Shown piece after piece: positions 3,798-20,192 of a DNA stretch of 33,015 bases. This DNA is from Halolamina rubra (GTDB lineage Archaea; Halobacteriota; Halobacteria; Halobacteriales; Haloferacaceae): the NCBI RefSeq assembly GCF_000739555.1, contig NZ_BBJN01000038.1, forward strand, positions 1 through 33,015. Direction: 5' to 3'. How positions within the stretch are numbered: position 1 is the stretch's first letter; every line of letters starts with the position of its first letter. The notes under the pieces are model-generated. The model worked only from the letters and a program-made list of their open reading frames with translations. It was not told where the DNA came from and ran no database searches. Made by a program: the position numbers and the translations under genes.

Positions 3798-4112
3798 CAG
3801 TATCTCTCTCGGTCGAGTTGGTGCTGGTTCGACCCTACGTAGGAAAGGGGTTTCCTCTTAGGAGTCGGTGTCGGAAAATCCCACCCAGTAGGAACCGGCG
3901 TCCAACGGGGCCGAACCTCGACGCAGACGTTCCTGCACGGAGGCTGGATGTGGTCGCGTGCCGGAGTTGGGTACACACGACTGCGGCAACAGCTCCGACG
4001 ATCCAGCCCGGAGGCTGGATCGGGTCGCGTGCCGAGGAGGGTTCGACACGACTGCGGCAACAGCTCCGACGATCCAGCACGGGGGCTGGATCGGGTCGCG
4101 TGCCGCAGTCGG
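3798..4112. other. Intergenic region: zinc-ribbon promoter side plus hairpin repeats
   Basis: No gene is visible in these 315 bases. The first 65 or so form the upstream region of the zinc-ribbon gene and include the AT-richer stretch near 3840-3860. The rest, from about 3929, is made of 71-nt repeats following the M42 peptidase gene on the minus strand. A very long minus-strand open frame crosses this region but has no protein-like content. Confidence 0.6.
3929..4092 (-). repeat. Tandem 71-nt hairpin repeats after the M42 peptidase gene
   Basis: Two good units and one decayed unit repeat with an exact period of 71 nt. Read on the minus strand, each has GATCCAGC, a six-base loop, GCTGGATC, a 12-nt spacer and then GCCGCAGTCGTGT. 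The hairpins are at 4071-4092 (loop CCCCGT), 4000-4021 (loop CTCCGG) and 3929-3950 (loop CTCCGT, only 5 of 8 pairs left). The boxes are at 4046-4058 and 3975-3987. The first hairpin begins 20 nt after the stop codon of the M42 gene, in the sense direction of that transcript. Units of the same design follow the MTH865 gene at 5567-5706. Confidence 0.88.
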
Positions 4113-5159
4113 CTACAGCGAGTAGTCGTGGGCGCCGTCCTCGCTCTCGAGGAACGCGGTCAGCAGGTCGATCGTGGCGCGGATGTCGTCGCCGTTCGCC
4201 GTCTCGGTGACGGTGTGGAGGTAGCGCGTCGGGATCGAGATGGCGCCGACGGGGATCGCGCCGTTGGTGTTCTGGAACCCGGCCGTGTCCGTGCCGCCAG
4301 AGGGGAGCACCTCGAGCTGGTGGTCGATCCCCTCGGCCTCGGCGACCGAGCGCAGTCGCTTGTGGACCTTCGGCGTCGTGATGACCGAGCTGTCCTTCAG
4401 CTTGATCGCCGTCCCGTCGCCCAGCGAGGTGACGTGTTTGTCCTCGCTGACGCCCGGGATGTCGCTCGCGATCGTCACGTCGAGCGCGATCGCGAGGTCG
4501 GGGTCGACGTCGACGCCCAGCGCGGTCGCGCCGCGGATGCCGACCTCCTCCTGGACGGTCGCACAGAAGTGGATCGTCGCGTCGGGGTTCTCGATCTCGC
4601 GGGCGGCCTCGAGCATCGCGAACAGGCAGACCCGGTCGTCGAGCGCCTTCCCGGTGACCGAGTCGCCCATCTCGATCGTCGACTGGTTCATCGTGACCAC
4701 GTCGCCGACGCTGACGAGCTCCTCGACCGCCTCGGCGTCGCGGCCGAGGTCGACGACGCGATCGCCGACCTCCTCCTCGCCCTCCTCGGCGTCGTCCAGC
4801 GTGTGCGGCGGGACCGAGCCGAACACGCCGGTGACGTCCTCCTCGCCGTGGACGGTCACGCGCTGGGCGCGGAGCACGCGCGCGTCCCAGCCGCCGAGCG
4901 CGTCGAGTTTGAGGAACCCGTCGTCGGTGATGTGTTTGACCATGAACCCGATCTCGTCCATGTGGGCCGCGACGGCGACGGAGTAGTCCGCGTCGCCCTC
5001 GATCGTGCCGACGACGTTCCCCATCGCGTCGGTGCGGACGTGGTCGGTGTTGGCCTCTAGCTCGTCGCGCGCGAGTTCGCGCACGCGGTCCTCGTAGCCG
5101 GGGACGCCGCTGGTCTCTGTCAGGTCTCGCAGCAGGTCGAAGTCGAACTCGAACGCCAT
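4113..5159 (-). CDS. M42 family metallo-aminopeptidase
   Basis: This is a 348-residue cytoplasmic peptidase of the M42 family (TET/glutamyl aminopeptidase-like), which removes N-terminal residues from peptides using two metal ions and usually assembles into large tetrahedral particles. Visible metal and catalytic residues are His66 and Asp68 (AAHMDEIGF), Asp174 (KALDDR), Glu204-Glu205 (VQEEVG), Asp227 (IALDVT) and a C-terminal His in TRYLHT. The length is normal for the family. The start chosen is the ATG at 5159; longer versions of the frame run into the divergent gene. It is divergent from MTH865 (136 bp gap), and its stop is followed at 20 nt by hairpin repeats. The peptidase call is strong; the exact substrate preference is open. 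Confidence 0.92.
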   Translation of the reverse strand: MAFEFDFDLLRDLTETSGVPGYEDRVRELARDELEANTDHVRTDAMGNVVGTIEGDADYSVAVAAHMDEIGFMVKHITDDGFLKLDALGGWDARVLRAQRVTVHGEEDVTGVFGSVPPHTLDDAEEGEEEVGDRVVDLGRDAEAVEELVSVGDVVTMNQSTIEMGDSVTGKALDDRVCLFAMLEAAREIENPDATIHFCATVQEEVGIRGATALGVDVDPDLAIALDVTIASDIPGVSEDKHVTSLGDGTAIKLKDSSVITTPKVHKRLRSVAEAEGIDHQLEVLPSGGTDTAGFQNTNGAIPVGAISIPTRYLHTVTETANGDDIRATIDLLTAFLESEDGAHDYSL

Positions 5160-5265
5160 GGCGGTAGCTCCGGCCCTGCGACCTAAAACCGGGCGGTTCC
5201 GGCCATCGACGCGGGTTCTCAACCGGGCGGGAACCGGTGTGACGTTCTCCCACGTTTCGGAAACG

Positions 5266-5270
5266 CTTAT
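5266..5270 (+). promoter_or_regulatory. TATA-like box of the MTH865 gene
   Basis: CTTAT, in the context AACGCTTATCC, lies 26-30 nt before the ATG at 5296. This is the spacing of a haloarchaeal leaderless promoter and supports the chosen start. Confidence 0.45.
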
Positions 5271-5295
5271 CCGACCTTCGGCGGCATTGGGGTGT

Positions 5296-5559
5296 ATGGC
5301 CGACGAGGAAACCGAACGCGAACTCCGTGCACAGCTCACCGACGCCTTCGAGGGCGCCGACTTCCCGGTCGACAGCCAGATGGATCTCGTGCCCGCGCTC
5401 CCCCAGGGGCCGAGCACGAAGTTCGAAGCCGGCGACGTGTCGTTCACGGCGATGGAGCTGGCCGCGAAGCTCGGCGGCGAGCAGGAGTTCCCCTACGACG
5501 ACGTGGAGTCGCTCGTCGACGACGTGATGGAGGGGCTCGAAGCGCAGGGGATGCTCTGA
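5296..5559 (+). CDS. MTH865 family protein
   Basis: This 87-residue acidic protein matches the MTH865 family, named after a Methanothermobacter protein of solved structure but unknown function. The hallmark segment is FEGADFPVDSQMDLVPALPQGP followed by TKFEAGDVSFTAMELAAKL. It is small, soluble and helical, with no membrane segment or signal. The gene is divergent from the M42 peptidase gene. Its stop is followed after 18 nt by a hairpin of the same repeat family that follows the peptidase gene, so the two genes sit in a mirror-image arrangement. Confidence 0.88.
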   Translation: MADEETERELRAQLTDAFEGADFPVDSQMDLVPALPQGPSTKFEAGDVSFTAMELAAKLGGEQEFPYDDVESLVDDVMEGLEAQGML

Positions 5560-5566
5560 CCGACGC

Positions 5567-5706
5567 GGCGAAATCCTGCCGACGCCTCCGGGCGTCGGCG
5601 ACTGATACTCTGCCGCAGTCGTGTTGTGACCACCGTGGCGAAGTTCCGTCGAGACCTCCGTGTCTCGACTTCGAACACTCCGCCGTAATCGCGTCGTAAC
5701 CAACGA
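5567..5706 (+). repeat. Two 70-nt hairpin repeats after the MTH865 gene, with compensatory stem changes
   Basis: Two units begin with GGCGAA at 5567 and 5637. Unit 1 has the hairpin GCCGACGC-CTCCGG-GCGTCGGC at 5578-5599, a 12-nt spacer and GCCGCAGTCGTGT at 5612-5624. Unit 2 has GTCGAGAC-CTCCGT-GTCTCGAC at 5648-5669, a 12-nt spacer and GCCGTAATCGCGT at 5682-5694. The stem sequences differ in several positions, yet both stems are perfectly paired and the loops are nearly the same. Length and layout equal those of the repeats at 3929-4092 on the other strand. Confidence 0.88.
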
Positions 5707-5747
5707 ACAGCGTGGTCGCTGCCGTACTGCACCGACGAGAGCCGCTT

Positions 5748-12812: not shown

Positions 12813-14044
12813 ATGTCCGAGCGTTTTGACGTGGTCATCGCGGGGGCGGGCCCGGCGGGCGCACAGTGCGCTCGCGACCTCGCCCAGCGAGGCTACGAGG
12901 TCGTCCTCCTGGAACTGGAGTCGGAGGACGAGTTCCCGCGTCAGAGCAACAAGTCGACCGCCGGCACGTTCCCGTCGATGATGGCGTCCTTCGGCGTCCC
13001 TGACGACGTGGTGATGAACTACACCGACGACGTCGTGCTCGAGTCACCGAGCCACCACTACGTCCAGAACCAGCCCGGGGCCGTGCTGGAGTTCGCCGAG
13101 TTCAAACAGTGGCTCGTCGCCGACGCCCGCGAGAAGGGCGCCGAGGTGTGGTTCGACGCCCGCGTCTCCCGGCCGATCACCGAGGACGGCAAGCCGGTCG
13201 GCGTCCGCTACAACGGCGACGAGGAGGTGTACGGCGACATCATCGTCGACGCCACCGGCCCCGCGGCGCCGCTGGCGAAGGATCTCGGCGTCAGCGACCT
13301 CGAACGCGAGAAGCAGGCCATCGGCGTCGAGTACGAGATGGCGGGGATCGATATCGACCACCCCGACTACGCCGACCTGACGGACTCGATGATGCTGCGG
13401 CTGGATCACGACCTCGCGCCCGGCGGCTACTCGTGGATCTTCCACACCGGCGGCGACGAGGCGAAAGTCGGGCTCTGCTACATCCAGAACGACAGCCACC
13501 GCCGTCACGGGAAGGAGGGGATGAGCATCGACGACTACCTCCAGTACTGGCTCGACACCGACCCGCGCTTCGAGGACGCCGAGCGGCTGGAGGGGAAAGT
13601 CCACCGCGGCTCGGCGCACATCCAGACGCCGGGCGACCTGACCACTGACAGCTTCATGGCGATCGGCGACACCGTCCCCACCATCGACCCGCTCTGGGGC
13701 GAGGGGATCCACAAGGGGATGCAGTCCGGCCGCGTGGCGGCGACGACGGCCGACCGCTGTCTCACACCCGAGGAGCCGGACACCTCGCGTCGGCGATGGC
13801 GGTGTACAACAAGCTCTGGCACAGCGAGGTCGCCCCGCGGATGCGCGAGCGCCTGCTGATGACGGAGCTGCTGTACCTCGCGCCCAACTCCCGCTACGAC
13901 AAGCTGATGGCCGACCTCAACGACACCGAGGAGGAGACGCTGGCGAAGGTCAACGCCGGCAACCTCGGCGCGATGCGGAAGCTCCTGCGGCTGAGCGACG
14001 TGCCGCTGCTCGCGAAGTTCGCCCGCGAGCGCCTGTCGGAGTAA
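12813..14044 (+). pseudogene. Geranylgeranyl reductase family flavoprotein, frameshifted
   Basis: The first frame (12813-13859) begins with the FAD-binding MSERFDVVIAGAGPAGAQCARDLAQ and runs through the family block GDTVPTIDPLWGEGIHKGMQSGRVAA. It turns into Arg/Ser-rich nonsense after CLTPEEPDTS. The expected sequence resumes in another frame with MAVYNKLWHSEVAPRMRERLLMTELLYLAP (13796-14044, ending ARERLSE). Restoring one base near 13784-13787, for example CC for C in ACCTCGCG, joins them into a protein of about 410 residues, the usual family length. Enzymes of this family saturate isoprenoid chains of archaeal membrane lipids or quinones. The gene is either truly broken or carries a sequencing error. 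Confidence 0.85.
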
Positions 14045-14046
14045 CC

Positions 14047-14108
14047 CGATCACGGCGCGCGACCTGCAGCGACCGATGGGTCGCTGCAGGAGCCCCTTGC
14101 CGTGATCG
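14047..14108. repeat. Nested inverted repeat (two-tier hairpin)
   Basis: An outer 10-bp perfect pair CGATCACGGC (14047-14056) and GCCGTGATCG (14099-14108) encloses an inner 12-bp perfect pair CCTGCAGCGACC (14063-14074) and GGTCGCTGCAGG (14079-14090) with a four-base loop, GATG. It starts two bases after the TAA of the geranylgeranyl reductase gene. It could be an mRNA 3'-end structure, a protein-binding palindrome or a small element. It is not followed by a T run. Confidence 0.8.
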
Positions 14109-14243
14109 TGTGACCCCAAATACGGCCCGGGCGTCTCGCGCGAACGCGGGAACCGGATCGAGCGACGATGTCTGACGGGCGTCATTTGTTAGGCGTTCGC
14201 CGCACCGCAACTTTCACTTCGGCGGGACTGCTCTACTCGCTCA

Positions 14244-19952: not shown

Positions 19953-20192
19953 TTACTCGAACCGGAACGTCTCGAGGTTCTTCGGCGCGAGCGAGTCCGT
20001 AGGACGAGTGAGCGTTTTTTTTGCATCACCAGAACGCTCCGCGTTCTGGTTAGCAGTCAAAACCCGTCGGGTTTTGACGACATGAACGGGTTTTGCGGGG
20101 GTCTGGCCGCAGGCGGCGGTTACGCCGCCCAGGACATGCCCCCGCAAAAACGGGTCACTTGAACCGGAACGTCTCGAGGTTCTTCGGCGCGA
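19953..20192 (-). mobile_element. Duplicated 3' end of fttA around a hairpin-rich insert (possible decayed integration site)
   Basis: The last codons of fttA are present twice in direct orientation. The 32-bp block from GAACCGGAACG to CGGCGCGA at 20161-20192 lies in the gene, and an identical block is at 19959-19990, offset by 202 bp. Both copies read APKNLETFRF plus a stop (TGA in the gene, TAA in the copy). Between them are several hairpins: ACCAGAACGC-TCC-GCGTTCTGGT (20028-20050), a 10-bp stem at 20056-20078 (arm GTCAAAACCC), an 11-bp long-range pair TTTTGCGGGGG/CCCCCGCAAAA (20091-20101 with 20139-20149) and GGCGGCG-GTTA-CGCCGCC (20112-20129). No integrase or transposase is present. A remnant or a non-autonomous element is inferred. 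Confidence 0.6.

Follow-up and report, generated by a model that had tools for sequence, protein, structure and literature searches.

The described systems closest to the elements studied here are the REP and BIME sequences of bacteria, the PATE and SMR repeats of Haloquadratum, and hairpins near the message ends of Haloferax volcanii. REP and BIME sequences, which include the GTAG and CGTC classes and are linked to RAYT transposases, are multi-copy extragenic palindromes that often lie close past gene 3' ends, singly or in tandem; some REPs provide the stop codon, and those of the GTAG class, found near 3' ends, often provide a TAG stop (PMC3733652). In E. coli, REPs that lie no more than 15 nt from a stop codon reportedly stall ribosomes (PMC12306157). 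PATEs and SMRs are short non-coding haloarchaeal repeats with palindromes; PATEs are common in Haloquadratum, and some appear to be derived from IS605-type transposons (PMC3119063). For Haloferax volcanii, PMC7237163 describes hairpins upstream of 3' ends, a T stretch as the strong intergenic termination signal, and a coding-region hairpin that ended 59% of transcripts when tested.

We analyzed a 33,015-nt stretch of Halolamina rubra DNA (NZ_BBJN01000038.1), hereafter the window, which carries hairpin units directly behind stop codons. To our knowledge, few structured RNA families are known from archaeal 3' untranslated regions.

Hairpin units in the window and their family

An initial annotation of the window described two adjacent units that share a design and differ in their stems, and direct reading of the sequence bore this out. 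The first is GCCGACGC-CTCCGG-GCGTCGGC, followed after 12 nt by GCCGCAGTCGTGT at 5612-5624, and the second is GTCGAGAC-CTCCGT-GTCTCGAC, followed after 12 nt by GCCGTAATCGCGT at 5682-5694. The units that it placed at 3929-4092 also form a real array, which we refined to two minus-strand units and a decayed third. A lone unit further along the window was absent from its list (Table 1). The first unit of array 1 has perfect outer arms (CGACTGCGGCA/TGCCGCAGTCG) and a computed fold of -41.2 kcal/mol; the lone unit has an inner stem lengthened to 12 bp and a GATG loop. All three loci sit at a stop codon: array 1 adjoins the TAG of the M42 peptidase gene (4113-4115), array 2 the TGA of the MTH865-like gene (5557-5559), and the lone unit lies 1 nt past a TAA (14042-14044) that closes the frame RERLSE-stop. 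Upstream of this third locus, a FAD-dependent, geranylgeranyl-reductase-like gene (12813-14044, plus strand) has a stop at 13859 in one frame, and coding-like sequence runs on in another frame to the TAA at 14044, which looks like a frameshift or a sequence error.

Table 1. Hairpin units and host genes in the window
Feature	Position	Strand	Score
Array 1 unit 1	4046..4112	-	83.2 bits, E 3e-16 (R1; training unit)
Array 1 unit 2, tandem repeat	3975..4041	-	76.6 bits (R1; training unit)
Array 1 third unit, decayed, without 3' box	3910..3970 (approximate)	-	17 bits, E 3.8 (R1)
Array 2 unit 1	5559..5624	+	71.5 bits (R1; training unit)
Array 2 unit 2	5629..5694	+	67.2 bits (R1; training unit)
Lone unit	14046..14111	+	49 bits, E 6.5e-8 (R1; non-training)
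M42 glutamyl aminopeptidase gene, host of array 1	4113..5159	-	PF05343, E 8.5e-88
MTH865-like gene, host of array 2	5296..5559	+	PF07747, E 5e-30

We built a covariance model, R1, from a seven-unit alignment; four of its units come from the window, and the other three lie on contig C20 of the window's genome. R1 gave 88 matches at E ≤ 10 in that genome, spread over many contigs, and the six other genomes of the genus that were returned each had matches of E 5e-10 or better. A second model, R2, was built from 122 units of the window's genome (G000), G004 and G005; with at most 150 candidates scored per genome, it gave 104, 20, 78, 68, 71, 73 and 70 matches at E ≤ 0.01 in G000 to G006, respectively. 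These searches confirmed that the units are a family of approximately 67-nt hairpins present across all seven Halolamina genomes returned. The annotation had proposed such a search, reasoning that a lack of further copies would point to chance duplication; copies that keep their pairing in related genomes answer that concern.

Across 391 genomes of the class, a scan that scored 13 candidates per genome, and which weak families can therefore escape, gave matches at E ≤ 0.001 in 12, six of them Halolamina. Two of the other six (G027 and G394, of one genus) were real by eye; the remaining four (L161-L164) were rejected, each lying inside a predicted coding region. When 40 genomes of other genera were searched less strictly, 34 had matches at E ≤ 0.5, most of them weak by a wide margin. 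Two genomes (G042 and G025) had several matches of equal or near-equal score that covered just the inner hairpin (model positions 13-53 or 21-47) and are probably unrelated repeats of those genomes. A scan of named genomes returned 14 stretches, two from Halolamina and 12 from bacterial records that we took as chance. Among viral contigs, 52 stretches fitted a loose pattern, and the model, on 21 of these, gave no match at E ≤ 0.01; plasmid records held no match to window positions 3926-4112. The annotation had recognized no named element, and Rfam 15 gave no match in the window at gathering score. A lax Rfam scan of 3900-5710 gave three weak hits, none on a unit, and we found no description of the family in the open-licence literature.

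Fold and compensatory change

The units have a three-tier architecture. The consensus of the 122 units reads CC[AG][AG][CT]CACGGC[GT][CA]G[CT]GACCN in the 5' half, followed by an 8-nt inner stem arm and CUCCGU; the 3' half is the second 8-nt arm, N-ACGGA[GA]C, 2-3 nt, and A[TC]GCCGTG[GA][TC][CT]GTGT. An outer helix of up to 11 bp encloses a middle helix of pairs G-C, Y-R, G.A, A.G and C-G, which was absent from the model, and an inner stem of 8 bp whose sequence varies freely. The 12-nt spacing and box of the annotation were correct as sequence, but the box does not stand free: in the seven-unit alignment GCCGCAGTCGTGT is the 3' arm of the outer helix, and its partner at the 5' end of the unit resembles CCGACTGCGGC.

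By column counts, both G.A pairs of the middle helix are present in 93 of the 122 units and in 31 of 58 units of a second set (58 distinct units from G001, G002, G003 and G006, not in the model), so the tandem is missing in 29 and 27 units, respectively; among the pair types listed, both were replaced by Watson-Crick pairs in 7 and 2 units. A kink-turn has a three-nucleotide bulge directly 5' of tandem G.A pairs. Here the columns flanking the G.A pairs are both paired, leaving no bulge, and we rejected this assignment. CUCCGU, the loop seen most often, is exactly complementary to the conserved ACGGAG that follows the inner stem. Pairing between the two showed no covariation among the 45 strongest pairs, a weak test because both segments are well conserved, and a pseudoknot over the 8-bp stem was rejected, its linker being too short. 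Pairing of the loop with ACGGAG between neighboring units or messages is possible.

Pairing is kept while the letters change. We scored 171 of 173 units, leaving out two long ones with insertions. The inner stem was Watson-Crick at all eight positions in 116 units and at seven of eight in 31, and these 147 stems comprise 78 distinct sequences. The mean paired fraction was 0.925, a value favored by our taking the best-pairing register in each unit, compared with 0.476 when arms were swapped between units (largest of 200 swaps, 0.511). Of the cells in the 122-unit alignment, 93.3% pair. A double change that leaves the pair intact was counted in 512 cells, against 142.5 in shuffled and at most 83 in slid controls, and the second set gave 221 against 59.7, with both counts taken from alignments fitted to the model, which favors structure. 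The top eight pairs by mutual information in the 122 units were the eight inner-stem pairs. Outside the modelled pairs the highest was the middle-helix pair 23-62, apart from 3-78, which is a shadow of two modelled pairs; its types were C-G 61, U-A 23, U-G 22 and C.A 5, with an association p-value of 3e-7 (4e-4 in the second set). Taken together, these comparisons strongly support the view that the structure is conserved while its sequence changes, and the compensatory change at constant geometry first noticed in the window extends to four further genomes.

Compensation could also be mechanical, with no selection on structure, if arms were equalised by replication template switching or whole units were recombined. 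Tandem arrays favor such events, and outside the inner stem units were more alike within arrays (0.80) than between them (0.68). To follow the same genes across species, the upstream proteins of three genomes were placed in 53 groups, 14 of which had arrays in at least two genomes. In 13 orthologous first-unit comparisons covering 104 inner pairs, 65 pairs were the same, 35 had changed on both sides with pairing kept, two were a G.U step, two were other changes, and A.C was never seen. Because 35 of the 39 changed pairs are full swaps and intermediates are so few, the pattern also fits whole-unit replacement by recombination. However, a mechanical process leaves the internal-loop letters, the steady spacing, the tandem G.A pairs and the docking at stop codons unexplained, and we consider it very unlikely as the full account. 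Concerted change between copies may be the source of part of the compensation.

The annotation had left open whether selection acts on an RNA or on a cruciform. The evidence leans to sense-strand RNA without settling the matter, and it consists of the position behind stop codons, the tandem G.A pairs and the scarcity of C.A at the middle pair. Tandem G.A pairs would be T.C mismatches on the opposite strand, so they are strand-specific, and at pair 23-62 C.A was rarer than U.G in both sets (5 versus 22 and 2 versus 9). A weak sign in the same direction is the excess of G.U over A.C in inner stems (23 versus 9 in 171 units, p-value = 0.02 if independent; 16 versus 7 in the 122-unit set), which was 8 versus 1 in first units and 8 versus 6 in later units. 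A DNA element, whether it forms a cruciform or is bound between genes by a nucleoid protein or topoisomerase, would fit stems that are almost all Watson-Crick and an outer helix with no G.U excess once its mostly-G.U innermost pair is set aside. The strand-specific G.A pairs, the C.A counts and an orientation that follows the upstream gene speak against it, and we judge it quite improbable.

Stop codons, host genes and a candidate origin

We measured the distance from each array to the nearest gene end, with genes called by a simple codon-usage script trained on these loci. In G000, G004 and G005, 62 of 83 arrays started -4 to +3 nt from the stop codon of a co-oriented coding-like frame (34 of 42 in G000 and 28 of 41 in the other two). 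The same test was passed by 28 of 1740 positions drawn at random from the non-coding parts of these loci, and by 3 of 83 arrays when applied to the far end on the other strand. The docked stops were TAA in 24, TGA in 20 and TAG in 18. The element began 0 nt past the stop in 31, 1 nt in 9, 2 nt in 13 and at other offsets in 9. Since the offset varies, no reading frame is kept behind the stop, and we rejected recoding or readthrough. The 21 arrays that failed the test include at least three at contig ends and two at HerA-like genes whose stop lies inside the unit; the rest are real misses or failed gene calls. Relaxing the rule gave an upstream gene for 70 of the 83. Docking recurred in the four other genomes for 20 of 29 arrays (28 distinct, one array having been seen in two loci), and the nine misses there included three HerA-like genes whose stop falls within the unit, along with one array cut by the locus end.

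Arrays of one to five units numbered 27, 35, 12, 5 and 4, and 71 of 90 neighboring pairs were spaced by 70-74 nt. Linkers between units were commonly GTAA, GTAG or GTGA. A stop trinucleotide directly preceded the next unit in 48 of 76 linkers, compared with 4.4% at random positions of the loci, which are mostly coding; the duplicated unit thus seems to take in the stop codon. A Pfam scan of 30 proteins covered 28 hosts, among them HMG-CoA synthase, PCNA, superoxide dismutase, pyrophosphatase, archease, a KH-domain protein and the M42 peptidase, and found no transposase gene among the 28.

The M42 gene allowed a closer comparison. Its orthologs carry the stems GATCCAGC, GCTCCAGC and GTTCCAGC, each with matching arms, and the protein end DY[SATM][LY] is in place in all 24 sequences compared (the window and 23 loci), indicating that the element was added behind the native stop and that the protein was not shortened. 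By eye, the element stands behind the stop in four of seven Halolamina genomes (G000, G002, G003 and G006). In G004 it comes approximately 130 nt later, and G001 has what looks like a decayed copy. G005 lacks it, and the flanks there are too diverged to read an insertion joint or the target-site duplication that would mark a MITE. No element was seen by eye at this locus in 17 genomes of other genera. Between the M42 stop and the array in G004 (L258) is a chain of four other perfect hairpins, three of them with GGA or TCC loops, and L124 has a similar end; these were also read by eye, and the chain is perhaps another 3'-end repeat.

These observations bear on the idea that the family is selfish, a mobile palindrome of the REP or PATE sort that does nothing for the host. 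Its hairpin would be needed as single-stranded DNA by a mobilising enzyme, and it would sit at stop codons because insertion there is harmless. The copies are dispersed and many, they are numerous in one genus only, the M42 site is empty in G005, and the GTAG-class REPs and the PATEs of Haloquadratum offer precedents. A mobile palindrome does not readily account for three different stops at the left end rather than one fixed tag, offsets of 0-2 nt in 53 of 62, one main orientation (62 versus 3 of 83) or retention of the native M42 end. The Y1 transposase gene (PF01797), for which we searched G000, G001 and G003-G006, also fails to track the elements. G001 has none and yet 20 element matches; the sole copy in G000 is on contig C53, which has no listed element; the nearest listed element is approximately 51 kb away in G004 and 12 kb in G005; and no listed element lies within approximately 11 kb of the gene in G000, G003, G004 or G005. 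We regard a purely selfish element as unlikely, though it is the main rival to our reading.

Arrays at gene ends could instead be transcription terminators, with hairpins that stop or release RNA polymerase, and the Haloferax volcanii coding-region hairpin speaks for this. The T stretch that serves as the strong intergenic signal there is scarce here. T4 occurred inside 1 of 79 arrays, and within 150 nt downstream in 20 of 79 compared with 30 of 114 gene ends without arrays, which is no enrichment. Assignment as an archaeal U-tract terminator was rejected for lack of the 3' U tract, and termination as the role of the hairpins is in our estimate improbable.

Besides missing the outer helix and the docking, the annotation, which was right about the hairpin units, did not notice a link to a HerA-like ATPase gene. 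The Halolamina protein has the Pfam domains DUF87 and HerA_C, and its gene carries an array in six of seven genomes, with none in G001. In five of these six, the last codons are the 5' arm of the first unit and the stop lies inside the unit, as in G004 (TGT GTC ACC AGA CAC GGC GAC TGA). The first full unit in G000 is 1 nt past the stop, and the gene end resembles a unit start. In G002 (L255 and L256), the match to the gene is split into two overlapping parts that lie in different frames, through either a frameshift or an error in the sequence. The only clear arrays in G027 and G394 are related tandem units at the HerA-like gene; their further matches were weak, and the three-tier fold appeared in two of six folded stretches and not in the other four.

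The gene was found in 25 of 26 searched genomes of other genera. The C-terminus there is TRHG[DE]-stop in 14 of 25, and [TV][RK]H plus 1-3 residues in all 25. These last codons are conserved for the protein in other genera, so the letters are older than the element. Past the gene end, G011 has a complementary arm and then a second copy of the end, and G014 a partial second copy; both look like early stages of the element. By eye, no such copies occur within 150-200 nt past the end at the other 23 loci. Behind the M42 stop of a genome from another genus (L271, G007), the last codons and stop (CACGACTACACGCTGTAG) stand in tandem with the spacer TCCAACACC, partly decayed, and we read this as a second case of a gene end duplicated across its own stop codon.

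From these comparisons we infer that the whole family descends from the HerA-like locus. The end of the gene would have been duplicated in tandem, and with a complementary 3' arm would have given the first units; in Halolamina, copies would then have spread to more than 30 other gene ends. The full proposal is of an RNA element born from a protein gene, in which a coding end duplicated across its stop became a hairpin that copied itself exactly behind the stops of more than 30 unrelated genes in one genus. We offer it tentatively, as a possibility that is less than probable. If true, landing so precisely on a reading-frame signal while the protein keeps its native end would imply one of two things: strong selection for a 3'-UTR device coupled to translation termination, or a copying route that reads mRNA rather than DNA.

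Proposed function and relation to known repeats

Our best reading, to which we give roughly even chances on sequence evidence, is that the arrays act in cis as structured RNAs, each lying in the 3' untranslated region of its own gene from the stop codon onward. The transcript would fold into the three-tier hairpin. The space covered by a terminating ribosome includes the first nucleotides behind the stop codon. The outer helix mostly begins 0-2 nt past the stop, within this footprint, so translation would open it and idle messages would close it; a terminating ribosome would have to open the helix, and an untranslated message would keep it closed. Shielding of 3' ends has been proposed for bacterial REP hairpins. 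The hairpins described here may likewise decide what becomes of the message end. Most likely they would shield it against 3'-to-5' exonuclease, with more units giving more shield. Ranked second are effects on ribosomes that have reached the stop codon, of the kind reported for bacterial REPs no more than 15 nt away (PMC12306157).

The family is also a resource, with 20-104 natural copies per genome and matched changes in both stems, and many of the copies follow housekeeping genes. Species that carry the element at a given gene can be compared with species that lack it there. Two questions thereby become open to testing: the means by which haloarchaea protect or read their message ends, and the way in which repeats come to land on stop codons.

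A second palindromic repeat lies in the window at 20012-20080 (ACCAGAACGC/GCGTTCTGGT, then a second hairpin, with T8 upstream). Similar copies are inserted inside the stems of two G005 units (L128 and L129), and others stand beside units in L116 and L167. Insertion of another short repeat into palindromes is also reported for PATEs (PMC3119063). The family resembles PATEs and SMRs further as a short, non-coding haloarchaeal repeat with palindromes, and differs from PATEs in that its 28 scanned hosts include no transposase gene and its position is tied to stop codons. It shares with the Haloferax volcanii hairpins a place near haloarchaeal message ends; for those, the accessible portion of PMC7237163 mentions neither a repeat family nor the stop codon. 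Like REPs and BIMEs, the elements are multi-copy, single or tandem, and close past gene 3' ends, and they share with the GTAG class many extragenic copies near 3' ends. They differ from REPs in a unit of approximately 67 nt rather than a 20-40 bp palindrome, in the three-tier fold with its freely varying inner stem, in being archaeal and in having a 5' arm common to a host gene end. No fixed GTAG tag stands at the foot of the hairpin, although the linkers show a partial likeness, and unlike RAYT-linked REPs no Y1 transposase lies near listed elements in the genomes compared. Overall, the family looks like an as yet undescribed signal at message ends, resembling REPs in place and copy number and departing from them in the GTAG tag, size and transposase.
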